Shown here: positions 306 to 59,064 of the stretch, one piece after another
How positions within the stretch are numbered: the first letter of the stretch is position 1
Layout: every line of letters begins with the position of its first letter
NCBI GenBank assembly: GCA_015978205.1
Contig: JADWMM010000002.1
Location: forward strand, 1 to 64,000
Length of the DNA: 64,000 nucleotides
Direction: 5' to 3'
DNA from: Alkaliphilus sp. NP8
GTDB taxonomy: Bacteria > Bacillota > Clostridia > Peptostreptococcales > Natronincolaceae
Position numbers and translations under genes: made by a program
Notes under the pieces: generated by a model
The model's input: the letters and a program-made list of their open reading frames with translations, nothing else
Told to the model about the DNA's origin: nothing
Databases searched by the model: none

Positions 306-2543
306 TTAAAAGAACTTATCCTCTATAGATATTTTCCCTTTTTTATTTCGTGCAACTCTTATTCCTACTTCCTTTGAATAAGTAGAATTTAAAATTGGTA
401 AGTATTCATAGTTATTCAACTTCAAATTATCGCTAATATTTCCTTCTACTAGATACTGTTGAACACTAACAGTAAAATCCATTAATTTATTTCTAGCAAT
501 TATCTTACTTTTTCTTATTTTTTTTCTTTCATTATCTGTCAACTTTTTATCATAAGATAAGGACATAATATTAATATATTCTTCAATATCGAATTTATTT
601 TTATTATAGATGTCAACTGGGATAACTGTAGCAGTATTAATATTTCTAAATTTCTTTTTAATTTCACTTTTAGATTTTTCAAAGTCCTCTATACTCTTTA
701 CATAACTAATTGTATTTTTAATTAACTTGTAGTAATCAGTATTTTTAAGGTTATCTGTAGTATATAAGTTACTAATTATATCAATTTTATCTTTTTCTGT
801 TAAAATTCCATCTACGTTTCTAATATAACATTTAGATAAGTTAAATATGTCTTTATCTACAACAAATCCAACTCCACTACATTCTTTTTTATCTCCGGTA
901 AAGACATAGCAATTATATCCTTTACCTATAAACTTTCTTTTTCTATAACACCTACCCATTCTTTGAAAAAGACCATTTATATCTGATAGTTCTGTTACTA
1001 AAACGTCGAAATCAATATCTAGTGAGGCTTCAACTACTTGAGTAGCTACCCAAATTCCATAACCATCAGAATGCCTAGAACCTAATTCTAAAATATCTAA
1101 TTCTTTTTCTTTTCTATGTTTTTTTATAAAGCCACTATGAAATAGATTTATATTATCTATGCCTTTTTTCTCTAATTCGTTATATATTTCTTGTGCTTTT
1201 TTTACTGTATTACATATAACTAAAACTTTATTTTTATTGTAAAAATTTAAAATATAATCTACGTTAATATCATTTTCTATTACTTTTACACTATGTCTAT
1301 TAAAACTTTCATCGATAAATGCTTCATTTGGGGTTTCAAATTCAATCTCCTCTTCTCTTAATAAATCTAGTACAATGTTAGGTAATGTAGCTGTAAGTAT
1401 TGCAAATTTCCCTCCAACTTTATTGATATAAGATAATCCTATAATTAAGTAAGCAAGTAGATCTGGTGAATACATTTGTATCTCATCTATTACTATTTTA
1501 GAATAAGTTAGTGTAGCTAATTTAGATTCAAACCCTCTATACCTATAAACAAAATCAAATATTTGATCTAATGTACATACAGTTAAAGGTAAAGACATTT
1601 GCTTTGTTTTATTAAAATATTCATCTAAATCAATATGATCAGACTTAATGTTTAAATATTCGCTGTAAGTATCTGAATGTAATAAGCCAACTTTATCTTG
1701 AAAGTTATTTTTTACAATATTTTTAGATATTCTATCGAATATAGAATTAATAGCTGTTTTTAAAGGTAATGTAAAGAATCCTTTATTATTTCCTATCCAA
1801 AGTAATCCTGCTTCTGTTTTTCCCATTCCTGTTTGAGCAACTACAATTACATTTTTTTCTCTATTTTTAATCATATATTTTTGCAACTTATTCCAGTCAG
1901 AATTTGGATTTTGATTTTTCCAATTTATTAATAAATCACTCATATTATCTATCAAAAAGTCATTTTGTTTTTCAACATCTATATGTCCACTAGCAGCATA
2001 ATCTATTCTATTTAATAAACCTTTTATAATTATGTATTTAATAAATATATCTTCATTATCTTTTTCGTAAATTCTGTCATTTTTTATAAAAAATGAATCC
2101 TCTATGAAGTCATCTATAAATTTACTATTAAGTTTATTATACTCAAATTGTTTTAAATCCTCTTTCATTGATTCAATAGCTTCTTCGAGTTCAAATTCTT
2201 CATAGGATAAATCTCTTTCATGATGGTAAGCTACAGTATGAAATAATATTTTTATATCATCATCTGAATATCCTATTTCTTCAAGTTCTTCATAATTAAT
2301 GAAAGCTAAACTTAATATTCCATGAGGAATTTCATCATCATATTTTTTTCTTGTTGTAAGTTTTTCTTGAAACTTAAAATTCATTTTCCCCAAATCATGA
2401 TGCAAGCAAGCCATATACAACATATCCCAATCTATTTCTAGATTAGGATATATTGTCTTAAGTATTTCATAATTTTTAATTAGATTATCTGTATGTTCTT
2501 GAATCGTTTCTTGGGGATTAGATTTTGCTAGAAACTTATTCAT
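306..2543 (-). CDS. cas3: CRISPR-associated helicase/HD nuclease Cas3 (type I-B)
   Basis: HHDLGKMNFKFQEKL HD motif, AQTGMGKTEA Walker A, DEIQ box, QRMGRCYR motif VI; cas neighbours. Confidence 0.95.
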   Translation of the reverse strand: MNKFLAKSNPQETIQEHTDNLIKNYEILKTIYPNLEIDWDMLYMACLHHDLGKMNFKFQEKLTTRKKYDDEIPHGILSLAFINYEELEEIGYSDDDIKILFHTVAYHHERDLSYEEFELEEAIESMKEDLKQFEYNKLNSKFIDDFIEDSFFIKNDRIYEKDNEDIFIKYIIIKGLLNRIDYAASGHIDVEKQNDFLIDNMSDLLINWKNQNPNSDWNKLQKYMIKNREKNVIVVAQTGMGKTEAGLLWIGNNKGFFTLPLKTAINSIFDRISKNIVKNNFQDKVGLLHSDTYSEYLNIKSDHIDLDEYFNKTKQMSLPLTVCTLDQIFDFVYRYRGFESKLATLTYSKIVIDEIQMYSPDLLAYLIIGLSYINKVGGKFAILTATLPNIVLDLLREEEIEFETPNEAFIDESFNRHSVKVIENDINVDYILNFYNKNKVLVICNTVKKAQEIYNELEKKGIDNINLFHSGFIKKHRKEKELDILELGSRHSDGYGIWVATQVVEASLDIDFDVLVTELSDINGLFQRMGRCYRKRKFIGKGYNCYVFTGDKKECSGVGFVVDKDIFNLSKCYIRNVDGILTEKDKIDIISNLYTTDNLKNTDYYKLIKNTISYVKSIEDFEKSKSEIKKKFRNINTATVIPVDIYNKNKFDIEEYINIMSLSYDKKLTDNERKKIRKSKIIARNKLMDFTVSVQQYLVEGNISDNLKLNNYEYLPILNSTYSKEVGIRVARNKKGKISIEDKFF

Positions 2544-2557
2544 AATAATCCTCCATT

Positions 2558-4371
<1,814 letters not shown>

Positions 4372-4379
<8 letters not shown>

Positions 4380-6051
4380 TGATTACCCCTCCATTTTCAT
4401 CTTTATTTATAACTTGCTTACCTTCAATTAATCCACTTACAAATGCATAACCTATAGTTTTGAAAGCAACATCATCAGTTAAGCCATCTAAAAATATTTG
4501 AGGAACTGTCTTTTGAACATATAGATAACAATTAAGTATAGTATCCATAAACATATCTTTATTATTTACTTTCAATGCATTCAACAATCTATAAGATATG
4601 CCACTTAATTTATTTTCAGCTTTTCTTTCTTTGTATTCTTTTCTTAAGAAATATCCATCTCTATTAGCTTTCTTTACAAGATCATGCTCTAAATTACCCA
4701 TGTATCCTACCCCCCTCATAAATTTAAAATTGATATTTTGCACCTTAATTAGTTGACTAACATTAAATCTAGCATTTTTAGGATTCGTCAATTTGTATAC
4801 TAATAACTTGTGAGTTAATAAGAATAAATTTTGATTATTAAATAAATTTTCAATTACTAAATCATAGATGTTAAAGTATATATTAGCTTCTTTAAAACCA
4901 CAATTTAATAGCTTATTTAAATCTTCTCTAGAATTATAAATAATATCTAAAGTCCTTCTTGATAATATATTAAATAAATATTTACCTTCACTATATCTAA
5001 CAACTTGTACATCTGATAATTCATATTTTGAACTATCAGTAAATTGATCTTTAATAGAGTTAACTAAGGCTCTATAAGTAAGAGAGTGTGTTATCTCATG
5101 ACCCTTTAAGATTTCACTTTTCACTTTATTATTTATAGTAATAGCACTCTCCATTGATGAATTATCATTTATGTAAATTCCTGAATTATGCACATATATT
5201 ATTCCAGCAGGACTGCAAGAATATATAAGCTTACAAATTGGACAAGTAGTAACATCATTATTAAAGTTCCAAACATGAGAAGATTTTCTACTAGTATCAA
5301 ATCCAGTATTAGTTAAAAAACTTAGATCATTTTTAAAATCTTTCATTTCTCTATCACAAACAAAACAATTATATTTAAACTTTGATTTATCTATTGATAT
5401 ATATTCTTTTGTTGGAGATATAAAATAATTTTTATAATCAACATACATATCTTTTTCCTTAGTTCGGGGATTTAAAAAACAAACTCCATCCCAAGCATTT
5501 TTAATTATTGTATAAATTACATTTTTAGCAGCTATATATTTTTTAGAACTATTCATATTTAAAAATTCAATTATATCTTTCAATACATTAAAAGATTCTT
5601 TTACTTTAGGAATTATGTCTTTAATATCTTGTTTCTTTTTTATATTGATTGTAGATAGCTTTTTTGATAAATTTAATATATAAATATCTTTATCTATTAG
5701 ATTATACGCACTTTTATAGCTATTACTTTTTATATAATATTTTACATCTTTTATATATCGATTTAGGTTATCTAAGCTAGACTCATCAAACTCTGTAAAA
5801 TCACTTTCTTCATGATAAACTATTGCATTTTTATAAGAAGTTATTTTATACCAAGATAATAAACACTCATATTTATTTATAAAATAATTAAAATATTTAG
5901 TTTCAAAATCTTCTAATAGATCAGAATCAAATTCAATATAATTATCATTAATAATAACTTGATCCTCTGCTTCTTTAAAAATATTATATAGCCCTACTAA
6001 TCCAGCATCATATAACCAATTATTCATTTCTAATCGTATAACTTGTCCCAA
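4372..6051 (-). CDS. cas8b: Type I-B Cas8b1/Cst1 large subunit
   Basis: CxxC (CFVCDREM) and CPICKL zinc-binding pairs typical of Cst1; position between cas6 and cas7. Confidence 0.85.
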
Positions 6052-6063
6052 AACTTCACCTCC

Positions 6064-6789
6064 TTACATTAGTTCCACCATGCCAAACCCTGTACTTTTC
6101 TGACTACCAATACCAGCCTTATAAATATAATCAAGTATATATGGTTTTCCCTTAATCTTTAAAATCGCTACATTACCTAAAACTTCAATACCATAGTGTT
6201 TTACTTTTACTTCTTTGTTTTTTAAAACATCTATTTTTAGTTCTTCAAGGTCTAATAACCTATTACTTTCAAAAGTATCATTAAATTGATGCCCAAAATT
6301 TTTAATAAATATTTCTTTGCCTTTTTCATCACTTAATGAATGATACCATGTTTTACTGTTATCTCCTTTATGCTCTCGAACTACAATAGGACTTAATGTT
6401 TTTAATATTATTTCATGATCATAGATATAAGACTCTTTTATAAAGTTGATTTTTTCAATAGTCATAACATTATTTTTAATGTTATATTTTTTACCCTTGG
6501 TACTTAAAAAAGAGTTATAAAACATAATTCCATCTTCCATATTATAAGTAGAGAAGTTTAATATTATCTTTTTATCTGGAATAATAATTTCTTGTCTCAA
6601 GAACTTGCAATCTTTCATAAATAATGAAAATGTAAAGTCCTTTGTTTTTGTTGGATCTTCTTTATAAAGTTTTGAGTAATATTCTTCATTATAAGAGATA
6701 AAATTATGTTTTATTAAAGATAAAATTATTCTATTTTTATCCTTAGGAATACTTTCATTTTCTAATAAAAGTTCTACATTAAATCTCAA
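6064..6789 (-). CDS. cas6: CRISPR pre-crRNA endoribonuclease Cas6
   Basis: C-terminal G-rich loop AGIGSQKSTGFGMVELM; TTG start with AGGAGGTGAGC upstream. Confidence 0.9.
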   Translation of the reverse strand: MRFNVELLLENESIPKDKNRIILSLIKHNFISYNEEYYSKLYKEDPTKTKDFTFSLFMKDCKFLRQEIIIPDKKIILNFSTYNMEDGIMFYNSFLSTKGKKYNIKNNVMTIEKINFIKESYIYDHEIILKTLSPIVVREHKGDNSKTWYHSLSDEKGKEIFIKNFGHQFNDTFESNRLLDLEELKIDVLKNKEVKVKHYGIEVLGNVAILKIKGKPYILDYIYKAGIGSQKSTGFGMVELM

Positions 6790-6833
6790 ATGCTCACCTC
6801 CTAATATTTAGTTATATATTTTTATTATAACTT

Positions 6834-6862
6834 TTAATGTTGACATATAATGGTAACATTAA
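6834..6862. promoter_or_regulatory. Candidate operator: inverted repeat TTAATGTT-N13-AACATTAA between WYL gene and cas6
   Basis: Perfect 8-bp arms at 6834-6841 and 6855-6862, just upstream of a minus-strand TATAAT. Confidence 0.45.
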
Positions 6863-6866
6863 AAAA

Positions 6867-7820
6867 TCATTTGTAATTTTCTAATATTTTTTCTGCTTCC
6901 GTTTTTATTTCCTCTTTTAAACTTATTGGTTCTATTACTTTAACATTACTTCCCATGCTTAATATCCAACTCTTAACTTCAGTTAATCCTTTCATCTTTG
7001 CTCTAAATAATATAGAATTATTATTATATAACTCTTGAATTTCTTGATTTTCAACCCATATTTTTTCTTTTATAATTTGCGCTATAGGATATTTTATCTC
7101 TAGCTCTATAAATATTTCTTGGTCTTTAAATATTCCAAAGCAATTTTTCATATATTCCTTCACATCAAAGTTAGAATCTCTATCAAATGTTTCATCTAAT
7201 ATTCTATACTCTTTTATTCTTGAAATTTTAAAATCTCTCATTTCATTTCTATATTCGCAAAAGCCTGCAAAATACATTGAACCTTTATACTGAAATATAT
7301 AATATGGGTGTACTATTCTAACATTTAATTCTTGTTTAGCTGACTCATATATGATTCTAATTTTTTTATTTAAAATAAGAGCTGCTTTTATATCAAACCA
7401 AATATTTTTTTCTCTTTGTAGATTATAATTTGATTTAGTATTTTTAATAACAAAATCAAAACTTATATCATTTTCACAATCTCGAAGTGCACCTATTTTA
7501 TCTACTAAAGACTTTAATTCTGAATATCCTATAAAATGTTCATACTTTAAGTGTTCCAAAGCAGAAAGTAAAGTTAAATATTCTTCATCTATAACATTTA
7601 ATCCTAATATATAGTCTTTATTATTAATTACATATCCACCGTATTTTCCTGGTATTGTATCTATATATATTCCTGCTTTATCTAAATCTTCTCTGTATCG
7701 AATTATCTGTCTTTTACTCACCTCTAGTTCATCAGATAATTCCTGTAGAGTCATCTTTCCACGGCTCTTTAACAAAATTAACATTTTTAAAGCATTGCTT
7801 ACTTTACTCAACACCATCAC
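6867..7820 (-). CDS. HTH + WYL-domain transcriptional regulator, probable cas operon regulator
   Basis: N-terminal winged HTH (TLQELSDELEVSKRQIIRYREDL); C-terminal WYL-type region (KIRIIYESAKQELNVRIVHPYYIFQYKGSMYFAGFCEYRNEMRDFKISRI). Confidence 0.88.
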   Translation of the reverse strand: MMVLSKVSNALKMLILLKSRGKMTLQELSDELEVSKRQIIRYREDLDKAGIYIDTIPGKYGGYVINNKDYILGLNVIDEEYLTLLSALEHLKYEHFIGYSELKSLVDKIGALRDCENDISFDFVIKNTKSNYNLQREKNIWFDIKAALILNKKIRIIYESAKQELNVRIVHPYYIFQYKGSMYFAGFCEYRNEMRDFKISRIKEYRILDETFDRDSNFDVKEYMKNCFGIFKDQEIFIELEIKYPIAQIIKEKIWVENQEIQELYNNNSILFRAKMKGLTEVKSWILSMGSNVKVIEPISLKEEIKTEAEKILENYK

Positions 7821-8267: not shown

Positions 8268-9197
8268 ATGCAATTAAAAGGAAGACATTTAATCGATCCA
8301 GATGGTATTACCTTAGAGGAACTTAATAAAATATTAAGTTTAGGTCTACAAATGAATAGTAATCCTAAAAAATATAGTGAAATTTGTAAAGGAAAAATTT
8401 TAGGCACATTATTCTATGAGCCTAGTACAAGAACTAGATTAAGCTTTGAATCTTCCATGCTTAGAATGGGTGGAAATGTGCTTGGCTTTTCCGATGCTAA
8501 TACAAGCTCTGTAAAAAAAGGGGAAAGTGTTGCAGATACTATTCGTGTTTTAGATGATTATGCAGATATTTTAGTTATGAGACACCCTTCTGAAGGTACA
8601 CCTGCACTAGCTTCTAATTACTCTACAGTTCCAATTATTAATGGTGGTGATGGTTGGCATCAACATCCTACTCAAACATTAACTGATTTAATTACAATAA
8701 AGAAGTTTAAAGGTGAAATAGAAAATTTAAAAATTGCTATCTGTGGAGACTTACTATTCGGTAGAACAGTGCACTCTCTTTTAAAAACATTAAGTCGCTT
8801 TCCAAATATGGAGTTTATTTTAATTTCTCCTCCAGAACTAAAAATTCCTAAAGTTTTAAAAGACGAAGTTATAAATAAATATAATGTTAAAATTACAGAA
8901 ACAACTTCTTTAGAAGAATGTATGGCAGAAATTGATATTCTATATATGACTCGTATTCAGAAAGAGCGATTTTTAAAAGAAGAAGATTATATAAGATTAA
9001 AGGATAGCTATATATTAAATACTTCTACTTTAGACAACGCAAAAGAAGACCTTCTTATTCTGCATCCTCTTCCTAGAGTAAATGAAATTCATACTGATGT
9101 GGATAATGATCCTCGTGCAAAATATTTTGAGCAAGCCAAATTAGGAGTTTATGTAAGAATGGCACTAATCGTACTTTTACTTGGAGTTATTGAATAA
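8268..9197 (+). CDS. pyrB: Aspartate carbamoyltransferase catalytic subunit
   Basis: [37 protein letters not shown] motifs. Confidence 0.97.
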
Positions 9198-17113: not shown

Positions 17114-17695
17114 TTATTTTATCTTTCTACTTCCAGGCTTAACAACATCTAATTTTCCTTCTTTACATATTGGGCAATTTTCTGGTTCGTAAGATATAAC
17201 TTCTATTGTTAAAGCTGCTCTTAACTTTGTGCCAAAGTCAATTGTACCATTACTTCTATCTACTAATACAGATACACCTACAACTTCTCCTCCTTGAGAC
17301 TCTACTACTTCCATTACTTCTTTTACAGATCCGCCTGTTGTTATTACATCTTCTGCAATTAATACTCTCGCTCCTTTAGGAATCTTAAACCCACGTCTAA
17401 GAGTCATTTCTCCATATTCTCTTTCTGCAAATAGATTTTTTACTCCTAACTGCCTCGCCATTTCGTATGCTATTATAACTCCACCCATTGCTGGTCCTAC
17501 TACCATGTCAATTTTATCATTTTTAAACTCTTCTGCTAAGCCTTTAGATATTTCTGCTGTAAATTCTGGGTACTGTAATATCTGTGCACATTGCATATAT
17601 TGATTACTATGTCTTCCTGAAGTTAATAGAAAATGTCCATTTAATAATACATCAGCTTCCTTTAATATTTCAATTACTCTCTCTGTATTTATCAT
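17114..17695 (-). CDS. pyrE: Orotate phosphoribosyltransferase
   Basis: VLIAEDVITTGGSVKE PRPP motif; operon context. Confidence 0.96.
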   Translation of the reverse strand: MINTERVIEILKEADVLLNGHFLLTSGRHSNQYMQCAQILQYPEFTAEISKGLAEEFKNDKIDMVVGPAMGGVIIAYEMARQLGVKNLFAEREYGEMTLRRGFKIPKGARVLIAEDVITTGGSVKEVMEVVESQGGEVVGVSVLVDRSNGTIDFGTKLRAALTIEVISYEPENCPICKEGKLDVVKPGSRKIK

Positions 17696-17742: not shown

Positions 17743-18654
17743 TTACAGTAATTTGCCACGAATATCATCTAAATTTTCCACATTATATTTATCCATATAT
17801 TCTTTAACTTCATCTATAACATCTATAGTGGCAGTTGGATTATTAAAATTTGCAGTGCCTACTGCAACTGCACTAGCCCCTGCTAATATAAACTCTACTG
17901 CATCTTCTCCATTTGCAATACCACCCATTCCAATAATAGGTACATCTACTGCATTTGCTACTTGGTAAACCATTCTAAGAGCTACTGGTTTAATAGCAGG
18001 ACCTGAAAGTCCACCTACTGTATTAGCTAATATTGGCTTTCTTTTATGAATATCTATTGCCATTCCAAGTAAAGTATTAATTAGAGATAGTGCATCTGCT
18101 CCTCCTCTTACTGCTGCCTTTGCAATTGCTACTATATCTGTAACATTTGGTGTTAGTTTTACTATTAACGGCTGTTTTGCTACTTTCTTAACTGCTTTTG
18201 TAACTTCTTCTACCATTGCTGGATCTGTTCCAAAATTTACTCCTCCAGCTTTTACATTTGGACAGGATATATTAAGCTCTATTAAATCAATATCTGCTTT
18301 GATTAATTTTTTTGCTACTTCACAGTAATCTTCTATGCTTTTTCCTGCTATATTTACAATAATTTTAGTATCGAACTGTCTTAAGAAAGGTATATCCTTT
18401 TCTATAAATTCATCTACTCCTGGATTTTGAAGACCTACACTGTTTAGCATGCCACCATATGTTTCTGCAATTCTTGGAGTAGGGTTTCCGTCCCAAGGCT
18501 CCTTTGCTACTCCTTTAACTACTACAGCTCCTAGCTTGTTTAAATCCACATATTCTCCATACTCTCTTCCAGATCCAAATGTTCCAGAGGCTGTCATTAC
18601 AGGATTTTTCAATTCTACTTCTGCTATATTTACTTTTATATTAGGATTAGTCAT
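17743..18654 (-). CDS. pyrD: Dihydroorotate dehydrogenase B (NAD+), catalytic subunit
   Basis: NPVMTASGTFGSGREY, ELNISCPNVK, GMGGIANGEDAVEF; likely start MTNPNIK overlapping pyrK stop (ORF track start 18690). Confidence 0.95.
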   Translation of the reverse strand: MTNPNIKVNIAEVELKNPVMTASGTFGSGREYGEYVDLNKLGAVVVKGVAKEPWDGNPTPRIAETYGGMLNSVGLQNPGVDEFIEKDIPFLRQFDTKIIVNIAGKSIEDYCEVAKKLIKADIDLIELNISCPNVKAGGVNFGTDPAMVEEVTKAVKKVAKQPLIVKLTPNVTDIVAIAKAAVRGGADALSLINTLLGMAIDIHKRKPILANTVGGLSGPAIKPVALRMVYQVANAVDVPIIGMGGIANGEDAVEFILAGASAVAVGTANFNNPTATIDVIDEVKEYMDKYNVENLDDIRGKLL

Positions 18655-19414
18655 TCCACACAACCTCCTCACTATAAAATACAGGTCCATCTTTACATAC
18701 TTTTTTATTTTGTACTTCTTCTTTTTTCTTGGTCTTACAAGTACAACCTACACATGCTCCAATTCCACAAGCCATTCTTTCTTCCATAGAAACCTGAGCT
18801 TTGATTCCATTTTCTGTTGCATATTTAGCAATTGCTTTAAGCATTGGCTTTGGTCCACAGCTGTATATCATATCTGCTTTAAGATTTTTTTCTTTAAGAA
18901 TATCCCTAACATTACCTTTTATTCCTACGCTTCCATCTTCTGTAGCTACATACACCTTTGCTCCATACTCTTTAAATTCTTCTATCAATATTGGATTACT
19001 TCTAAATCCTAAATAAACTTCTATATTTCCCTTAAGCTGCTTTACTAGTTCCACTAAAGGTGGAGCTCCAATTCCTCCACCTATTACAATATGATTTTCA
19101 GCTTCCTTTGGAATATTAAATCCATTTCCTAAAGGCCCTAGTACTTTTACTTCATCACCTATTTTCATCTCTGATAATGCTTTTGTACCTTTTCCAACAA
19201 CTGCATAAACAATGGTTAAAACATTTTTCTCTTTATTAATTTGGCTTATACTAATAGGTCTTGGTAGTAATGAACCTGAACTATTAGTATACATATTTAC
19301 AAATTGACCTGCCTTTGCACTTTCTACTATTTCTTTAAAAAGTAAATCTATTTTATATATTCCTGGTGAAATTTCTACATTATCTACTATTTTGACTTTA
19401 TGAGTTTGCTTCAT
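18647..19414 (-). CDS. pyrK: Dihydroorotate dehydrogenase electron transfer subunit
   Basis: RPISISQIN flavin motif; C-terminal MACGIGACVGCTC 2Fe-2S motif. Confidence 0.95.
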   Translation of the reverse strand: MKQTHKVKIVDNVEISPGIYKIDLLFKEIVESAKAGQFVNMYTNSSGSLLPRPISISQINKEKNVLTIVYAVVGKGTKALSEMKIGDEVKVLGPLGNGFNIPKEAENHIVIGGGIGAPPLVELVKQLKGNIEVYLGFRSNPILIEEFKEYGAKVYVATEDGSVGIKGNVRDILKEKNLKADMIYSCGPKPMLKAIAKYATENGIKAQVSMEERMACGIGACVGCTCKTKKKEEVQNKKVCKDGPVFYSEEVVWND

Positions 19415-22400
19415 TATTCCACCCCCAAGTTAATCATTTCTAAGCTTTCCATAGATATATTAGACTCTAATACTTTCAATAAAGCTGCTACTGTATCTAA
19501 CGATGTTATTACTCCAATAGATGATTCTACAGCTGCTCTACGAATTTTAAATCCATCTCGCTTTGTATCATTTCCTTTAGTTGGTGTATTCACAATTAAA
19601 TCTACTTCTCCACTTTGTATTATATCTAGTATATTTGGTTTTTCTTCTCCTATTTTGTTTACACTTTCTACTGCTATTCCATTACTTTCTAGATACTTTG
19701 CTGTACCCTGTGTTGCCATAAATTTATATCCTTTTTTAGCAAAGTTCTTCGCTAAAGGTAAAAATTCTTCTTTATCTATATCTTTTAATGTTACTAAAAC
19801 TTTGCCATTTTCTTTTAAAATAGGAATCTTTGCAGCTAAACAACCTTTGTATAAAGCTTCTATCCAGTCTTTTCCTACACCTAGAACCTCTCCAGTAGAT
19901 CTCATTTCTGGTCCTAAGCTTACTTCTACTTTAGGTAGTTTTTCCGTAGAGAATACTGGCACTTTTACTCCTACAATATCTGATTCTTTATATAATCCAG
20001 TTCCATAACCTAAATCTTTTATTTTCTCTCCTAACATTACTCTAGTTGCTAAAGCTACAATAGGAACTTCTGTTACCTTACTTATATATGGTACAGTTCT
20101 ACTAGATCTTGGGTTTACTTCTATTATATAAAGCTCATTTTTAAATTCGATAAACTGTATGTTGATCATTCCGTTAACTTTTAGTCCTAAAGCAATCTTC
20201 TTTGTATAATCTTCTATTTTTTCTTTTATTTCTTTTGATATATTCGGACTTGGATATATAGATATACTATCTCCAGAGTGAACTCCAGCTCTTTCTAGAT
20301 GTTCCATAATTCCTGGAATTAATATTTCCTCTCCATCGCATAAAGCATCTACTTCTATTTCTCTTCCTATTAAATATCTATCTATAAGAACTGGGTTTTT
20401 CTTATCTTTATTAAAAGCTTCTCCTAAATATTTTTTTAGTTCTTCCTCTTTAAATGTAATTTCCATACCTTGTCCACCAAGTACATAGGAAGGTCTTACT
20501 AACACTGGATAACCTAATTTCTCTGCTACATTTAAGCCTTCTTCTAAGTTCCAGACAGCTTTTCCTTTAGGTCTTTCAATATTTAAGCTTTCCATTAAAG
20601 CATCAAACTTCTCTCTGTCTTCTGCAGCATCAATCTGTTCTGGTTTAGTTCCTAATATTGGAATATTCATTTCTCTAAAGAATTTTGATAATTTGATTGC
20701 CGTCTGTCCACCAAACTGTAAGATTACACCGTCTGGATTTTCTTTTTCAACAATGTTTAACACATCTTCTTCTGTTAAAGGTTCAAAGTATAATTTATCT
20801 GATATATCAAAATCTGTACTTACGGTTTCCGGATTATTATTAACCATAATAGTTTCGATTCCTGCTCTTCTTAAAGCTAATACACTGTGTACACAGCAGT
20901 AGTCAAACTCAATTCCTTGCCCTATTCTAATAGGCCCTGATCCTATAACCATAACCTTTTTCTTATTAGATATATTTATTTCATCTTCTTTGTCGTAAGT
21001 TGAATAGTAGTAAGGAGATACGGCTTCAAACTCTCCACCACAAGTATCTACCATTTTATATACTGGGTTAATATTAAATTTATTTCTTAACTTGTAAATG
21101 TTCTGTGGACTACATCCAATTAAATCTGCTATTCCCTTATCTGAAAAACCTTGTTTCTTAAGTTTTCTTAACCATTCTTCATTTAAATCTTCTAATTTAG
21201 TTTCTTTTAATCTTTCCTCTTCTTCTACTATTCCTTTTATTTTCTCTACAAAGAATGGATCTACTCCAGTAATTTTACTTACCATGTCTACTCTATAATT
21301 TCTTCTAATCATTTCTGCTAAATCGAACAATCTTTCATCGTCTGGAACTTGAACCCTAGCTTTTAATTCATCTATACTTCGTTTTCTAGAGTTTTTATGT
21401 TCTAAAGAATACTGACCTATTTCTAAAGATCTGATTCCTTTTAACAGAGCTGCTTCAAAGTTATTTCCTATTGCCATAACTTCTCCAGTTGCCATCATCT
21501 TTGTTCCTAAGCTTTTGTTTGCTTCATGGAATTTATCAAAAGGCCATTTTGGTATTTTTATTACTACATAATCAAGAGTTGGTTCAAAACAAGCATATGT
21601 TTTTTTCGTTACTGCATTTTTAATTTGATCTAATCCATAGCCTAAAGCAATTTTAGTTGCGACCTTTGCTATTGGATACCCTGTTACCTTAGAAGCAAGA
21701 GCTGAAGACCTACTTAACCTTGGATTAATTTCTATAACTATATATTCAAAGCTTTCAGGATCTAATGCAAACTGTACATTACACCCTCCTTCTATTCCAA
21801 TTTCATTTATAATATCCATAGATGCACTTCTAAGCATTTGACACTCTTTATGTGAAAGAGTTTGAGAAGGAGCTACTACTATACTATCCCCTGTATGAAC
21901 ACCTACAGGATCCACATTTTCCATATTACACACAGCTATACAGTTTCCATAGCTGTCTCTTATAACTTCATATTCTATTTCTTTCCAGCCTTTAATACTT
22001 TTTTCAAGAAGTACCTGGCTAACTGGACTTAAGTGTAAACCTGATGCTAAAATCTCTTTTAGCTCTTCTTCTGTTTCTGCAATTCCACCACCAGCTCCAC
22101 CTAATGTATATGCTGGTCTTACTATTACTGGGTAACCTATTTGCATAGCAAATTCTAATCCATCTTCTAAATTTGTAACAATAGAACTTTCTATAATAGG
22201 CTGATTTATTTCCTCCATTAAGTTTTTAAATAACTCTCTGTCTTCTCCCTTTTTTATGGAGTTTATTGATGTTCCAATTACTTTTACATTATATTTATCT
22301 AAAATTCCCTTATCATCAAGCTCTACTGCTAGGTTTAGTCCTGTTTGACCTCCCATTCCTGCAATTAAACTATCTGGTCTTTCTTTTTCTATTATCTTTT

Positions 22401-22623
22401 CTACTACTTCTACCTTTAATGGTTCTATATATATTTTATCTGCTATTTCTCTATCCGTCATAATAGTAGCTGGATTACTATTTATTAATACAACTTCTAT
22501 TCCTTCTTCCTTTAAAGCTTGACAAGCCTGAGTCCCTGCGTAGTCAAACTCTGCTGCTTGCCCTATAGTTATTGGTCCTGATCCTATTACTAGTACTTTT
22601 TTTATGCTGTTGTCTTTTGGCAT
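19414..22623 (-). CDS. carB: Carbamoyl-phosphate synthase large subunit
   Basis: [20 protein letters not shown], second repeat [20 protein letters not shown]; 1069 aa. Confidence 0.98.
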
Positions 22624-23687
22624 ACTTTTTCTCCTCCTGTCATTTCTAAAAATCTGTCAAATATATATTCTGTGCCGTTTGATCCTGGGCATGTTTCTGG
22701 ATTAAATTGTACGCTGAATATTGGCAGAGTTTTATGCTGCATTCCTTCAACTGTGCTATCGTTTAGATTTACATGCGTAACTATCATTTCTTTAGGTAAA
22801 TCTGATATTCCAACTACATATCCATGGTTTTGAGAAGTTATATAAACCTTATTAGTAATAAAATCTTTAACTGGATGGTTAGAGCCTCTGTGTCCAAATT
22901 TCAACTTAGAAGTATTTCCACCTAAGCTAAGTGCAAGGAGTTGATGTCCTAGACTGATTCCGAATATAGGTTTCTTCCCTATTAACTCCTTAATATTTTC
23001 TACAATATCTGTTAAGTCTTTTGGATCTCCTGGTCCATCAGATAAGAAGATTCCATCTGGATTAATACTTAAAATTTCATTTGGAGTTGCAGTTGCTGGA
23101 AATACAGTTAAGCGACAATTTCTTTTTTGAAAACTTCTTAAGATATTTGATTTAACACCTAAGTCTATTACTGCAATATGTTTACCTTCTCCTTTTATTT
23201 CATAAACAGCTTTACTTGTAACGGATTTAACTGGACTTTCATTATTAAATCCTTTTAATTTTTCTTTAACTTCTTCATCTGTTAATTCTGCTGTAGTAAT
23301 AATTCCTTTCATAGTCCCGTTATTTCTCAATATTTTAGTTAGCGCTCTCGTATCTATTCCTTGTAATCCCATTACTTTATTTTGTTTTAAATATCCATCT
23401 AAATCCATTTCACAGCGCCAATTACTTGGACTTTCACAAAACTCTCTTACTATTAAAGCTTTTACCTGAACTTTTTCCGACTCAATATCTTCTAAGTTAA
23501 TTCCATAGTTTCCTATTAAAGGATAAGTCATCGTAACTATCTGTCCAGAGCAGGATGGATCTGTCAATACCTCTTGATATCCTGTCATTCCTGTATTAAA
23601 AACTACTTCTCCAATACTTTCTCCTATATATCCAAAAGCTTTACCTTCTAAAATACTTCCGTTTTCCAGTATAAGTTTTGCTTTCAT
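22602..23687 (-). CDS. carA: Carbamoyl-phosphate synthase small subunit with substituted glutaminase catalytic residues
   Basis: CarA fold ([41 protein letters not shown]) but FGISLGHQ replaces GICLGHQ and VQFNPE replaces xHPE. Confidence 0.96.
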
Positions 23688-23700
23688 TTTAATGCCTCCC

Positions 23701-24624
23701 TTATAAGATTTTTTCTATATCTTTTTTCATTTCAATTACTGCCTTGCGACTTGCTAAAGCAAACTCTTTCTCAGTAAATTCATACCTATATTTTTCATTT
23801 TTGTAAGCTGCTATAATTCCTCTAGAAGAATTAATAATTGCTCCTAATCCATCTTCGTTAAAATATCCCTTTAAGTCTTCCGCAGTTGCCCCTTGTGCTC
23901 CGTAACCAGGAACTAAGAAATAACTTCTCGGCATTAACTTACGAATTACTTTTGCCTCTTCTGGGTGGGTAGCTCCTACTACTGCGCCTACTAAGCTATA
24001 TCCTCTTTTTCCTATAACTTCTTCTCCCCATTTATTTACAGAATGCCCAACTTTTTCGTAAAGCTTTTCTCCTCCAATGTCTAAATCTTGAAATTCTCCA
24101 CTATTTGGGTTAGATGTTTTTACTAGTATAAATAATCCTTTGTCGTATACTTTACAGTTACCTATATATGGATTTATTGAATCTACTCCTAAATAAGGGT
24201 TTAGTGTTATTGCATCCTGATTAAAAATTGTATGGCTATTACCTTCTATATCTATTTTCCCTATGTGCCCATTTGAATAAGCCTCTGCAGTAGATGCTAT
24301 ATCGCTTCTTTTTATATCTCCTATTACAATAAGTCCTTTTTCCTTTGCATAGTCTATAGTTTTTATATATGCTTCTAATCCTTCAGGTCCATACTGCTCA
24401 TACATTGCTATTTGAGGTTTTACAGCAGGAACTAAATCGTAAACATTATCTATTATTTCTTTATTAAATCTATAAAAAGCTTCACCTACTGCCCTTGCTG
24501 TTTTTCCGTATACTTCATAAGCGTTATCTTTTATATGATTTGGTATAAAGTTAAGTCTTGGGTCTAAACCTACAACAATCGGTGCTTGTTTTTCCTCTAT
24601 TGTTTCTATTAATTTATCTATCAT
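23701..24624 (-). CDS. pyrF: Orotidine-5'-phosphate decarboxylase
   Basis: VGLDPRLNFIP, GDIKRSDIASTAEAY, VPGYGAQG. Confidence 0.95.
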   Translation of the reverse strand: MIDKLIETIEEKQAPIVVGLDPRLNFIPNHIKDNAYEVYGKTARAVGEAFYRFNKEIIDNVYDLVPAVKPQIAMYEQYGPEGLEAYIKTIDYAKEKGLIVIGDIKRSDIASTAEAYSNGHIGKIDIEGNSHTIFNQDAITLNPYLGVDSINPYIGNCKVYDKGLFILVKTSNPNSGEFQDLDIGGEKLYEKVGHSVNKWGEEVIGKRGYSLVGAVVGATHPEEAKVIRKLMPRSYFLVPGYGAQGATAEDLKGYFNEDGLGAIINSSRGIIAAYKNEKYRYEFTEKEFALASRKAVIEMKKDIEKIL

Positions 24625-24696: not shown

Positions 24697-25998
24697 TTAC
24701 TTAGTTTTTAACTCTCCATCTTCTACTACAACTTTTCCACTTACTATGGTGTAAAGTGCCTTTCCTTTCACTTTTCTATTGTGAAAAGGACTGTTTTTAC
24801 TTTTAGAAGCGAAGTTATTACTATCTATTTCATATTCTAAGTTTGGGTCGATAATTGTAATGTCTGCATACTTCCCCACACCTAAACTACCTTTTTCTAT
24901 TCCTATTATCTTTGCTGGATTAATTGTCATTTTTTTAATAAATTCTATAGGGCTAAGAAGTCCTGTTTCTACAAGTTCTGTAATTCCTAAAGGTAGTGCT
25001 GTTTCAAGTCCTACAATGCCAAATGGAGCTTTGTGAAACTCTGTATCTTTTTCATCTTTACTGTGAGGGGCATGGTCTGTTGCTATAATTCCTATAGTTC
25101 CATCCTTTAAACCTTGTTTTATTGCTTCAACATCTTTAGTATTTCTAAGAGGCGGATTCATTTTTGCATTTGTAAAACCTCTTTCTACTACTTCATCAGT
25201 TAATGTAAAGTGATGAGGACAAACTTCTGCACTTATATTTTCACCTCTTACTTTTGCTTCTCTAATAAGCTCTACACCACCCTTTGTACTTACATGGCAT
25301 ATATGCAGCTTTACTCCAGTATTTCTTGCAAGTATTATATCTCTTGCTATGATTACGTCCTCCGAATCATTTCCTATGCCTTTTATACCTAACTCTTTTG
25401 ATCTTTTTCCTTCGTTCATTGCTCCACCCTGTACTAAATCAGTATCTTCACAGTGAGAAAACACTGGAATCTCACAAGTTTTAGCTTGCTTCATTGCTTC
25501 TTTTAGTAAATTACTTTTTATAACTGTCTTTCCATCTTCACTAATAGCACAAATTCCTGCCTTTACCATTTCATCTATTTCAACTAGTTCTTCTCCAGTC
25601 TGACTTTTAGTAATGCTTCCAATAGGTACTACATTAACTATTCCCTCTTTTTTACTTTTTTCATTAATGTATTCTACTACCTCTACTGTATCTGTTACAG
25701 GCTTAGTGTTTGGCATACAGCAAATTGTTGTAAATCCTCCTTTTGCTGCACTTTCACATCCAGTTTTAATACTTTCTTTATGCTGAAATCCAGGATCTCT
25801 TAAGTGTACATGTAAATCTATAAGTCCAGGTACTACCCAGTATCCTTTTGCATTTATTACTTTGTCTGCTTCTTCATTAATCTCTGATTGTATATTTACT
25901 ATCTTTTTATTATGAATCAATATATCTTGAACTTTATCTATTTTTGTAGCTGGATCAATAACTCTTCCATTTTTAATTAATAATTTCATAAGATCCAC
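24697..25998 (-). CDS. pyrC: Dihydroorotase
   Basis: GLIDLHVHLRDPGFQHKE, ATDHAPHS; probable start MKLLIKNG. Confidence 0.96.
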   Translation of the reverse strand: MDLMKLLIKNGRVIDPATKIDKVQDILIHNKKIVNIQSEINEEADKVINAKGYWVVPGLIDLHVHLRDPGFQHKESIKTGCESAAKGGFTTICCMPNTKPVTDTVEVVEYINEKSKKEGIVNVVPIGSITKSQTGEELVEIDEMVKAGICAISEDGKTVIKSNLLKEAMKQAKTCEIPVFSHCEDTDLVQGGAMNEGKRSKELGIKGIGNDSEDVIIARDIILARNTGVKLHICHVSTKGGVELIREAKVRGENISAEVCPHHFTLTDEVVERGFTNAKMNPPLRNTKDVEAIKQGLKDGTIGIIATDHAPHSKDEKDTEFHKAPFGIVGLETALPLGITELVETGLLSPIEFIKKMTINPAKIIGIEKGSLGVGKYADITIIDPNLEYEIDSNNFASKSKNSPFHNRKVKGKALYTIVSGKVVVEDGELKTK

Positions 25999-26066: not shown

Positions 26067-26120
26067 TAAAACAAAAGGACAATGGAAAGATTATAAAAAC
26101 AATAATCTCTCCATTGTCCT
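26067..26120 (-). terminator. Attenuator terminator in pyrC operon leader
   Basis: Minus strand AGGACAATGGAGAGATTATT-GTTTTT-ATAATCTTTCCATTGTCCT then TTTTGTTTT. Confidence 0.85.
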
Positions 26121-26270
26121 AACTTATTAGCTATAAATTGAGAACTTAAAAATACAGGGTTAATTAAATTAATTTTATCCATTTTGCCCTTATTTTTAGT
26201 TTCATTATTTTTTTGTACATTAAAAAACCCATCAAAAAAACACGCAGTGATGAACTCCATCTTAATTCCT

Positions 26271-26303
26271 CCCTTTCTGGCCTCACAGGACCACCTTTAA
26301 AGG
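26271..26303 (-). promoter_or_regulatory. PyrR-binding loop 3 (pyrC operon leader)
   Basis: Minus strand CCTTTAAAGGTGGTCCTGTGAGGCCAGAAAGGG, same core as the pyrB leader loops. Confidence 0.88.
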
Positions 26304-26478
26304 TCGACAGCGTATTGTCGTTTTCTTATCATATTTTTTTATTTATTTTTTAACAGTTTATCATAATATTTTTCATTGGTCAATACTTTTTTGTCTAATT
26401 ATTAGACCTTCCATTATATTTCCTGCTATAATATATCTATATATAATAAAAAATTATTATCCCCTATGGAGGTTTAAT

Positions 26479-30913: not shown

Positions 30914-33900
30914 TTAAATTTTTTCTACTTTAATACCTGTATCATGATCATTTAGATTTTGTTTTTCTAAGCTATCATCATTTACTCTTTCAACTTTTTG
31001 TGCTAATGTTTCTTGCATAATGTAGTCTTTATGAATATCTACTGCTTTAGCAATTTCATCATCACTATTAAAGTAAATATTAATATTATCCGCTACTTCA
31101 AATCCACTATTTTTTCTTAATTGCTGTACTTTAGAAACAAACTCTCTAGCTAAACCTTCGTTAATTAAATCTTCATTTAATGTTGTATCTAAAATAACGA
31201 ATAAGTTGTTTGCCATTTCTACAGTAAAGCCTTCTTTAGCTGAAATTGTAACCATTACATAGTCTTTATTGATTGTAGTCTTTTCTCCATCTAAATCAAT
31301 CTCTATGCTTTCTCCAGCTTCAAGCTTTGGTACAACTTCTGATGCATCAAGCTGTGCTAAAGCTTTTCCTAATAACTTAACTTTACCTCCTAATAAAGGG
31401 CCTGCCTTTTTAAAGTCTGGCTTTAAGTTAAAGTTCATAAAGTCTCTTAGGTTTTTCTCGAAAACAACTTCTTTAATATTCAGCTCTTCTTGAATTAATG
31501 AAGCTAAGTCAGAAATTAAGCTTTCATACTTACCATCTACAAGAATTTTTTGTAATGGCTGACGAACTTTGATCTTTTCTTTTTCTCTTGCTGCTCTTCC
31601 AAGTCCTACTAAATCTCTAACTAAGTCCATCTTTTCTTCTACGTCGTTATCTACTAATTCTTTATTTGCTACTGGATAATCTGCTAAATGTACAGATTCT
31701 TTTCCAGTTAAGTTTTTGTAGATTTCATCAGATATAAATGGTGCAAATGGAGCTACCATTTTTGCTACTCCTGTTAAAATTTCATATGTTGTATTGTATA
31801 CTGCTTTTTTATCTTCAGTTAATTCTGTTGCCCAGAAACGACGTCTTGCTCTTCTAATATACCAGTTAGATAAATCTTCGTTTAAGAAGTCTTGAATCTT
31901 TCTAACTGCTTTAGTTAAGTCATATACTTCTAATTCGTTTATTACTTCATCGATTAAGTTATTGTATTTAGATAAAATCCATCTATCTAACTCTGGTCTA
32001 TCTTTATATTCGATAAAGAAATCTTCTGGGTTAATTCCATCTGTATTTGCATATAAAGTAAAGAATGTATATACATTTTGAATAGTTGTAAAAAATTTAC
32101 TTTGTACTTCTTTTAATCCATCAACATCAAACTTTGTAGGTGTCCAAGCTGGAGATACGAATAATAAATACCATCTTAATGTATCTGCACCATACTTATC
32201 GAATAATTCAAATGGATTTACTGTATTTCCTTTAGACTTAGACATTTTCTTTCCATCTTTATCTAATATAAGATCATTTACAAGTACATTTTTATAAGGA
32301 GAAACTCCTTTTACAAATGTAGAAATAGCTATTAGTGAATAGAACCAACCACGAGTTTGGTCAATTCCTTCACAGATAAAGTCTGCTGGGAATGATCTTT
32401 CAAATTCTTCTTTGTTTTCAAATGGATAATGTTGTTGTGCAAATGGCATAGATCCACTGTCAAACCAGCAGTCAATTACCTCTGTTACTCTTGTCATTTC
32501 GCCGCCACATTTATCACATTTTAAGTGTACATCATCAACATAAGGTCTGTGTAATTCTATAGATTCATCAATATCTTCAATAGCTTTTTCTGCAAGTTCA
32601 GCTCTAGAACCTACCGATGTTTTATGTCCACAGTCACATTCCCAAATATTAAGTGGTGTTCCCCAATAACGATTTCTAGATATTGCCCAATCGTTTAAGT
32701 TGTCTAGCCAGTTACCAAAACGTTTTTCACCAACAAAATCTGGATACCAGTTAACTGAGTTATTATTTTCAATTAATTTATCTTTAAGCTTAGTCATTTC
32801 AATGTACCAGCTTGGTTTTCCGTAGTATAAAAGTTCTGTTGAACATCTCCAGCAGTGTGGATAGTTATGAGCAATCTTTTCTTTATGGAATAGCTTGCCT
32901 TCAGCTGCTAACCATTTAATAATGTCAACATCGCAATCCATAACAAATCTTCCATCCCATGGCGTACCTACATATTTTCCCTGTTCATTAACCGGCTGAA
33001 GAACTGGCAGGTCATATCTTCTTCCTGTGTTGTAATCATCTTCACCAAATGCAGGAGCAGAGTGAACAATACCTGTACCATCTTCTGTAGTTACGTAATC
33101 TGCTAATGTAACAAAGAAAGCTTTTTTGTCTGGCTTTACGAATGGCATTAATTGCTCATATTCAATGTATTCTAAGTCCTTACCTTTTAGTTTCTCAATA
33201 ACCTCATACTCTTCTCCAAGTACTTTAGTAGACAGATTTTCTGCTACATAATAAACTTTTTCATCTGGCATTTTTACTTTTACGTACACTACTTCTGGAT
33301 GAACTGTCAATGAAACGTTTGCTGCTAATGTCCATGGAGTAGTTGTCCATGCTAAGAAATATTCATCCTTATCTTTTAATTTAAAAGGTGCAATAACTGT
33401 ATTAGATTTTATTTCCTTATATCCTTGTGAAACCTCATGAGAAGCTAATCCAGTTCCACAACGTGGGCAGTATGGCAAAATCTTATGTCCTTCATATATA
33501 TATCCTTCTTTAAAGAATTTATCTAAAATCCACCACACAGATTCTATATAGTTATTATCTAGTGTAATATATGGATTATCTAAATCGATAGCGTAACCCA
33601 TTCTTTCTGTCATTTCTCTCCATTGTTTTTCATATGTGAACACAGACTCTCTACACTTAGTATTAAACTTATCTAGACCATAATTTTCAATTTCTTGCTT
33701 ATTTGAAAGGTTTAACTGTTTTTCTACCTCTATCTCTACTGGAAGACCGTGTGTATCCCAACCTGCTTTTCTTTTTACTTGGTAACCCTTCATAGTTTTA
33801 TATCTACATACAGAATCCTTTAATGTTCTAGCCATAACATGGTGAATTCCTGGTTTACCATTAGCTGTTGGAGGTCCTTCATAAAATACAAAAGGCTTGT

Positions 33901-34024
33901 TATCAGCACGATTGTCTACACTTTTATCTAATATTTTATTATCTTCCCAATACTTAGAGGTTCTAATTTCTCTTTCTGCAACTGGTTCATTTGATAATGG
34001 TTTAAATCCTTTCATTTCTCTCAT
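30914..34024 (-). CDS. ileS: Isoleucyl-tRNA synthetase, IleS2-like, with GIHH in place of HIGH
   Basis: EGPPTANGKPGIHHVMAR, KKMSKSKGN, TTPWTLAANV editing domain; 1036 aa. Confidence 0.96.
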   Translation of the reverse strand: MREMKGFKPLSNEPVAEREIRTSKYWEDNKILDKSVDNRADNKPFVFYEGPPTANGKPGIHHVMARTLKDSVCRYKTMKGYQVKRKAGWDTHGLPVEIEVEKQLNLSNKQEIENYGLDKFNTKCRESVFTYEKQWREMTERMGYAIDLDNPYITLDNNYIESVWWILDKFFKEGYIYEGHKILPYCPRCGTGLASHEVSQGYKEIKSNTVIAPFKLKDKDEYFLAWTTTPWTLAANVSLTVHPEVVYVKVKMPDEKVYYVAENLSTKVLGEEYEVIEKLKGKDLEYIEYEQLMPFVKPDKKAFFVTLADYVTTEDGTGIVHSAPAFGEDDYNTGRRYDLPVLQPVNEQGKYVGTPWDGRFVMDCDVDIIKWLAAEGKLFHKEKIAHNYPHCWRCSTELLYYGKPSWYIEMTKLKDKLIENNNSVNWYPDFVGEKRFGNWLDNLNDWAISRNRYWGTPLNIWECDCGHKTSVGSRAELAEKAIEDIDESIELHRPYVDDVHLKCDKCGGEMTRVTEVIDCWFDSGSMPFAQQHYPFENKEEFERSFPADFICEGIDQTRGWFYSLIAISTFVKGVSPYKNVLVNDLILDKDGKKMSKSKGNTVNPFELFDKYGADTLRWYLLFVSPAWTPTKFDVDGLKEVQSKFFTTIQNVYTFFTLYANTDGINPEDFFIEYKDRPELDRWILSKYNNLIDEVINELEVYDLTKAVRKIQDFLNEDLSNWYIRRARRRFWATELTEDKKAVYNTTYEILTGVAKMVAPFAPFISDEIYKNLTGKESVHLADYPVANKELVDNDVEEKMDLVRDLVGLGRAAREKEKIKVRQPLQKILVDGKYESLISDLASLIQEELNIKEVVFEKNLRDFMNFNLKPDFKKAGPLLGGKVKLLGKALAQLDASEVVPKLEAGESIEIDLDGEKTTINKDYVMVTISAKEGFTVEMANNLFVILDTTLNEDLINEGLAREFVSKVQQLRKNSGFEVADNINIYFNSDDEIAKAVDIHKDYIMQETLAQKVERVNDDSLEKQNLNDHDTGIKVEKI

Positions 34025-34050: not shown

Positions 34051-34330
34051 CAAAAAGTCCCTAAGTCTAAAAGACTTAGGGACGAATTATCGCGGTACCA
34101 CCCTGATTATAAAATAGATTAGATTTATAGCTAAAATTCCTATAACTCTCTACTTTATCACTTATTGCATGTAACGTATGCAACGAAAGGTCTTACTATT
34201 ATTTCAGATCTTTAGCTCTAAGGTGATATTCATAAAAAGTACTGTCATAATCTTTCACCAAACGATTATGTCTCTAAAAGCAGTTTCTTTTTATTACTGT
34301 CCTTATCATTGCTTATAATGTTTTAAGTTT
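34051..34330 (-). promoter_or_regulatory. T-box leader (Ile-specific) upstream of ileS
   Basis: Minus strand AGGGTGGTACCGCG T-box, terminator GTCCCTAAGTCTTTTAGACTTAGGGACTTTTT, candidate specifier ATC in GAATATCACC (34225-34227). Confidence 0.93.
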
Positions 34331-58789: not shown

Positions 58790-59000
58790 TTATGACGAAT
58801 CTTACATACTTCCCTCCGAAGCAACGATTCTTACTTTCCAAGGCAGGTCTCCTGACTTACAGATTTTCTTACTCTCTTTCCTTCCCAGTTTCCCAGTGGT
58901 TACAAAGATTTCATACCTGCTCACAGTAGCGGGGGCTGCAGAGGATTTTAACCTCTTTCCCTTTTAACTTTAAAAATAAAGCACCTTGAAGTTTTGTTTT
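58790..59000 (-). promoter_or_regulatory. Cobalamin (AdoCbl) riboswitch upstream of cobQ
   Basis: Minus strand AAGGTGC...AAAAGGGAA...GCAGCCCCCGCTACTGTGA...CCACTGGG...GGGAAGG...GTAAGTCAGGAGACCTGCC. Confidence 0.95.
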
Positions 59001-59064
59001 TATTTAATTTTAAGTTACAACTTTATTATAATTTAGTTAAGTTATATATGTCAATATTGTTAAA

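Follow-up and report, generated by a model that had tools for sequence, protein, structure and literature searches.

Carbamoyl phosphate synthetases (CPS) of bacteria are all presumed to use glutamine as nitrogen donor. The enzyme from Escherichia coli cannot hydrolyse glutamine without Cys269 and His353, and CarB can also use ammonia, though only at high concentrations, in a reaction that is likely to be physiologically irrelevant (PMC6245113). The window, by which we mean the whole stretch of 64,000 nucleotides from Alkaliphilus sp. NP8 that was analysed, contains within a pyr operon a carA gene whose product has neither of these two residues. The question that this locus raises is from which donor such a synthetase obtains its nitrogen and for what reason its small subunit has been retained.

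The small subunit and its altered glutaminase site

The gene and the codons of interest are the following:

22602..23687, minus strand: carA, CPS small subunit lacking part of the glutaminase triad, 361 amino acids, one uninterrupted open reading frame
22953..22955, minus strand: codon AGT, Ser245 replacing the nucleophile Cys (E. coli C269), by alignment to E. coli CarA
22701..22703, minus strand: codon AAT, Asn329 replacing the catalytic His (E. coli H353), by alignment to E. coli CarA
22695..22697, minus strand: codon GAA, Glu331 of the triad, kept (E. coli E355), by alignment
22680..22682, minus strand: Ser336 replacing a Pro that is found in 109/109 intact relatives (HPExxPGP; E. coli P360)
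23037..23039, minus strand: Asp217 replacing the conserved Asn of SNGPGD (E. coli N240, adjoining G241), position computed from the residue number
23550..23552, minus strand: Cys46 replacing an invariant Tyr (E. coli Y48, adjoining S47), position computed from the residue number

The protein is a genuine member of its family: it scores 469.6 bits with TIGR01368 (cut-off 307), and Pfam recognizes both the CPSase_sm_chain domain (PF00988, 184.9 bits) and the GATase domain (PF00117, 171.6 bits). Its predicted fold (pLDDT 88.9) is matched best by structures of E. coli CarA, among them that of the C269S mutant (1c30). A sequence-only reading of this DNA had claimed that both catalytic residues of the glutaminase are substituted, and the alignment to E. 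coli CarA bears this out; the nucleophile motif (GISLGHQ), which had been placed around 22921-22980, is more precisely located at about 22941-22961. The sequence at the histidine motif is FNPET. Of the Cys-His-Glu triad by which TIGR01368-type CarA proteins are defined, the window protein has Ser245, Asn329 and Glu331. Judged by its sequence it is thus a CarA by descent, for which the label "glutamine-hydrolyzing" appears unwarranted, the defining triad being incomplete.

The substitutions are not scattered at random. Among 106 columns that are conserved to at least 90% across 109 relatives, the window CarA deviates at five (Y46C, N217D, C245S, H329N and P336S), and the probability that both catalytic residues are among five deviations is about 0.002 under random placement. 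The corresponding E. coli positions (Y48, N240, C269, H353 and P360) all presumably lie in or beside the glutamine site. The residues which we take to contact glutamine in E. coli CarA (S47, G241, L270, Q273, N311 and G313) are kept at every position checked, and for this reason the window CarA may still bind glutamine.

The pyr operon and the pathway to UMP

The operon has the order pyrC-pyrF-carA-carB-pyrK-pyrD-pyrE, which is identical in the nearest relative (G005). Besides carA, the window contains the following genes and elements of the pathway, pyrK, pyrD, pyrE, pyrF and pyrC having been aligned with the G005 operon:

24697..25998, minus strand: pyrC
23701..24624, minus strand: pyrF
19414..22623, minus strand: carB, synthetase large subunit, intact, 1069 amino acids, overlapping the end of carA (TIGR01369, 1553.6 bits)
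18647..19414, minus strand: pyrK
17743..18690, minus strand: pyrD, true start perhaps downstream of the one listed
17114..17695, minus strand: pyrE
26220..26307, minus strand: weak match to a PyrR-binding site in the pyr leader (34.2 bits, E 0.005; Rfam gathering score 54)
26074..26120, minus strand: strong hairpin followed by a T-rich stretch before pyrC, the terminator of a presumed attenuator (leader fold z = -4.9)
8268..9197, plus strand: pyrB, aspartate carbamoyltransferase (TIGR00670, 354 bits, cut-off 237)

CarB deviates at only 2 of 265 near-invariant columns, and its TIGR01369 score is the highest among the 21 genomes searched. No frameshift or stop was found in any pyr gene of the window; pyrB, C, D, E, F and K are intact, and their dN/dS values relative to G005 are about 0.02–0.09 where computable, synonymous sites being near saturation. 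PyrB was the sole transcarbamylase found in a search of the source genome, which revealed no ornithine transcarbamylase. With pyrB in the window the UMP pathway is therefore complete, and carbamoyl phosphate has no ornithine transcarbamylase competing for it. The PyrR-type control that had been proposed for the operon may exist, the match being a weak one at 34 bits against a gathering score of 54. Two further leader elements were noticed in the window, a T-box leader (34075-34318) upstream of an isoleucyl-tRNA synthetase-like gene (30914-34024) and a cobalamin riboswitch (58825-59003). By eye, a type I CRISPR-Cas-like set (Cas3, Cas5, Cas7, Cas8-like and Cas6) together with a WYL-type regulator was read at 306-7820.

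CarA and CarB are both absent from both other genomes of the genus that were examined, so that the pyrimidine pathway is dispensable in the genus. CTP synthase (PyrG, PF06418) was not found in any of its three genomes (G000, the source genome, G001 and G002), two of which are 99–100% complete; G005, which belongs to the same family, has the enzyme.

Loss of the triad in other CarA proteins

Whether the pair of Ser and Asn is shared by the clade can be answered in the negative, since 109/109 first relatives have Cys, His and Glu. The survey comprised 187 other CarA proteins, largely from one order, namely these 109 and 78 more from relatives in the order. The triad is present in 177 of the 187, including 68 of the further 78; of the remaining ten, one is truncated at a contig end and nine are triad-less. 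That the window CarA would be the sole case is rejected by these nine, which belong to three other lineages of the order and, as a paralogue, to one metagenome-assembled genome. Six genomes of one genus (3.9–4.3 Mb) have a CarA copy with Gly and Ile at the catalytic positions (GIGLGHQ, VQYIPEYTT). The CarA of G021 has Ser and Asp, with the histidine loop deleted, other species of its genus being intact, and that of G106 has Gly and Asn and lies within a complete operon (pyrB-pyrC-carA-carB-pyrK-pyrD-pyrF-pyrE); in both genomes the triad-less CarA is the only one listed. G061 carries a paralogue with Gly, Tyr and Phe alongside intact copies. CarB is retained in all these lineages with independent loss of the triad.

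The locus of the six genomes (L275:5404-14404) matches a record of Clostridioides difficile (NZ_CP149720.1, 113471-122478) at 91%. This record contains two tandem carA-carB pairs, the first with a triad-less and the second with an intact CarA, and both carA copies are publicly annotated as glutamine-hydrolyzing. The label of this record says plasmid, but the matched stretch looks chromosomal.

In a tree of the 188 CarA proteins the triad-less ones occupy at least five separate positions: the window CarA is sister to the intact CarA of G005 (support 0.98), and the CarA of G021 nests within an intact genus (support 0.93). On these sequences the triad would have been lost independently at least five times. 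A search of 398 genomes of the phylum with the DNA pattern for GxSLG(H/N)Q, restricted to AGY codons for serine, gave matches in 19 genomes, and the sole CarA among them was that of the window.

Selection on triad-less CarA

In the six Clostridioides-type genomes synonymous divergence is moderate, and dN/dS is usable. For the triad-less CarA it is 0.104 in the GATase domain and 0.069 in the N-domain, as compared with 0.036 and 0.026, respectively, for the intact paralogue of the same genomes. The triad-less CarA of Clostridioides, including its glutaminase domain, is maintained under purifying selection.

The relative rate of the GATase domain is higher in triad-less than in intact proteins (43 vs 6 for G021, 29 vs 12 for Clostridioides and 61 vs 16 for G106), and the CarB-facing N-domain of the same three is much less accelerated, mostly not evolving faster than that of the intact relative. 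A fast GATase domain next to a steady N-domain fits a protein that has lost the glutaminase function and kept the partner function. The GATase domain of the window CarA points the same way to a more modest degree, with changes of 22 vs 12 (p 0.12) or, when a different outgroup is taken, 18 vs 6 (p 0.02), and an acceleration specific to this domain relative to the rest of the operon is not significant (Fisher p 0.36). It should be noted that the window lineage consists of one genome, and that selection after the loss was measured only on the Clostridioides counterpart.

GMP synthetase and the remaining glutaminases of the genome

CarA is not the only protein of the source genome that is affected. 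Its GuaA has 324 amino acids, comprising the ATPPase and the C-terminal domain and lacking the GATase domain (TIGR00884, 502.7 bits):

L187:3377-4351 (G000:C43 131376-132350), minus strand: guaA without GATase, beginning 6 bp after guaB

No remnant of a GATase was found beside guaA in the sequence searched. Sister proteins retain the GATase with Cys and His intact (513 amino acids in G001 of the same genus, 510 in G005); among the matches listed, the GuaA frames of nearly all members of the order have at least 510 amino acids, the exception being G047 with 264. A second, intact CarA in the source genome, which would supply the function missing here, had been named as something to look for; a family search of this draft (81 contigs, 92.6% complete) found no second CarA, and no PF00117 domain other than that of CarA was found.

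This does not mean that the genome has lost all of its glutaminases, a possibility refuted by PurL, PurF and GlmS, in which the glutaminase residues are preserved. The glutaminase of PurL is a class-I-type domain related to PF00117 that looks intact and is fused within PurL; those of PurF and GlmS are of the Ntn type, each joined to its own synthetase. Glutamine use has thus not been abandoned. Glutamine synthetase is also present.

The purine genes show peculiarities of their own. In the source genome an in-frame fusion joins purE to purF (637 amino acids; L184:8230-10143 in G000:C43, minus strand), where relatives have purL (and purC, purQ) in between. The fusion keeps the propeptide-like motif of PurF (GEE|CGVVGI), and self-cleavage there could separate the two halves. 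A long PurL is encoded at 82497-86249 on the same contig, and the notion of a broken purine pathway, which the fusion might suggest, is weakened by this intact enzyme. In G001 the purine operon (L189:8569-18344) has no purC/purQ between purE and purF, unlike that of G005, and only a short PurL.

What the enzyme is likely to do

We consider it probable that the window encodes a working CPS that has lost glutamine hydrolysis, in which CarB is fed by ammonia and CarA persists as a partner without catalytic function. With free ammonia, bicarbonate and two ATP as substrates, CarB would supply PyrB with carbamoyl phosphate, and CarA would keep CarB in an active assembly, possibly still binding glutamine as a ligand. 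The sequence-only reading had made CarA a purely structural subunit. A need for it in the assembly of CarB would account most simply for its retention; glutamine sensing via the preserved binding residues is another possible reason. Such a loss would be plausible in an amino-acid-using anaerobe with plentiful ammonia. Genes for peptide utilisation and an operon for an Mrp-type antiporter, both read by eye in the window, would fit, as a conjecture, an amino-acid-using and possibly alkaliphilic anaerobe. We infer the loss of glutaminase activity, the use of ammonia in vivo, the structural role of CarA and the ammonia-rich habitat alike.

The most serious alternative is early decay: the genus would be losing de novo pyrimidine synthesis, and the changes in the triad would mark the onset of pseudogenisation in an organism that depends on salvage. 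The absence of both CarA and CarB from the two other genomes of the genus, the want of CTP synthase in all three and the rearranged purine operon with its purE-purF fusion speak for it. The sequence-only reading had held the intact carB and pyr operon against decay, an argument that has since been strengthened by the recurrence of triad loss, by purifying selection in Clostridioides and by the loss of the GATase from GuaA. Indeed, the pyr genes are free of frameshifts and stops, CarB is almost unchanged at its near-invariant columns, dN/dS is low wherever computable, and the changes in CarA are centred on the glutaminase site rather than spread. The purine gene lost from its operon is covered by the long PurL elsewhere, GuaA lacks cleanly the GATase domain and nothing else, and counterparts in other genomes are maintained under selection. 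The same kind of loss in CarA and GuaA of one genome makes the decay of a single pathway hard to invoke, and we regard decay as unlikely.

That glutamine is still used, either with Ser245 as a weak nucleophile or by another glutaminase feeding CarB in trans, we hold to be quite improbable. Serine can serve as nucleophile in other hydrolase families, and all glutamine-contact positions checked are retained; in the window CarA, however, the catalytic His is replaced as well, no second PF00117 domain was found from which CarB could be served, and the glutaminase domains of PurL, PurF and GlmS are fused to their own enzymes. An error of sequencing or assembly at both codons, for which one could point to the single draft genome in 81 contigs, can practically be dismissed in view of two separate sense substitutions at both catalytic residues, accompanied by other changes of the glutaminase site in a clean frame, and of the independent cases found in several other genomes, the named C. 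difficile record being one.

Beyond the single operon, we lean, with less assurance than for the window itself, toward the view that CPS in anaerobic Clostridia has repeatedly been switched from glutamine to free ammonia by knocking out the triad of CarA and keeping the protein, that in the present organism GMP synthetase has followed the same course, and that Clostridioides runs both types of CPS. If true, two central nucleotide enzymes of the source species would draw their nitrogen from free ammonia and not from glutamine, which would alter metabolic models as well as the effect to be expected of glutamine-analogue inhibitors on CarAB and GuaA, and the reason why Clostridioides retains two carAB pairs would be suggested. 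Because sister species keep the triad, possible causes such as ammonia supply, amino-acid fermentation and alkaline habitat would then become testable.

In the open-access literature we found no description of a triad-less bacterial CarA. The NCBIfam cut-offs for glutamine-hydrolyzing enzymes are passed by the window CarA, by all three of the other triad-less CarA proteins that were scanned and by the GATase-less GuaA, so that the phenomenon is hidden in annotation; if our reading is true, the label "glutamine-hydrolyzing" is being put automatically on proteins without the residues needed. In a published survey guaA was fused to a glutaminase in 730/730 genomes and carAB without a glutaminase gene occurred in 0/600, where gene arrangement was scored, not residues (PMC3376133).

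Comparison with known systems

E. coli CarAB belongs to the family of the window enzyme and shares its fold (TMq 0.90). The wild-type enzyme differs in having an intact triad and in being glutamine-dependent. Its mutants with Ser269 (1c30) and Asn353 (1a9x) were made singly in the laboratory; the window CarA combines both exchanges naturally.

Among other amidotransferases, single-domain bacterial NadE is comparable in that its members, which have no glutaminase component, are supplied in vivo by free ammonia. Single-domain NadE has been judged to be ancestral (PMC3376133), whereas the glutaminase loss in the genome of the window is secondary. The two-subunit GMP synthetase of archaea has a stand-alone ATPPase (PMC9312489), to which the GuaA of 324 amino acids may be likened. 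Archaea, however, encode a separate GATase subunit, and the only PF00117 protein found in the source genome was CarA.

CPS III of Alcolapia, a soda-lake fish, shows a shift from glutamine towards ammonia in an alkaline habitat, but it retains the triad, has one glutamine-binding residue changed and still uses some glutamine (PMC7657897).

Vertebrate CPS I is a further system to be compared. Human CPS1 (PDB 5dot and 6w2j) has Ser at the position of the Cys in a retained glutaminase-like domain and uses only ammonia, which is external and possibly arrives via an alternative path (PMC4655335); both structures match the predicted window CarA with TMq 0.86–0.87. By analogy, ammonia would also be the donor of the window CPS. 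CPS I is one fused chain that functions in urea synthesis and requires N-acetylglutamate, whereas in the window carA and carB are separate genes of a pyrimidine operon, a context that argues against activation by N-acetylglutamate and against a role in a urea cycle. Unlike CPS I, the window CarA has also lost the His, and it keeps the glutamine-contact residues. The resemblance to CPS I that had been noticed at the outset thus holds for the mechanism and not for membership or origin: the window CPS is not a CPS I, and its origin is independent. If our interpretation is true, the switch from glutamine to ammonia that vertebrate CPS I has undergone has a repeated parallel in bacteria.
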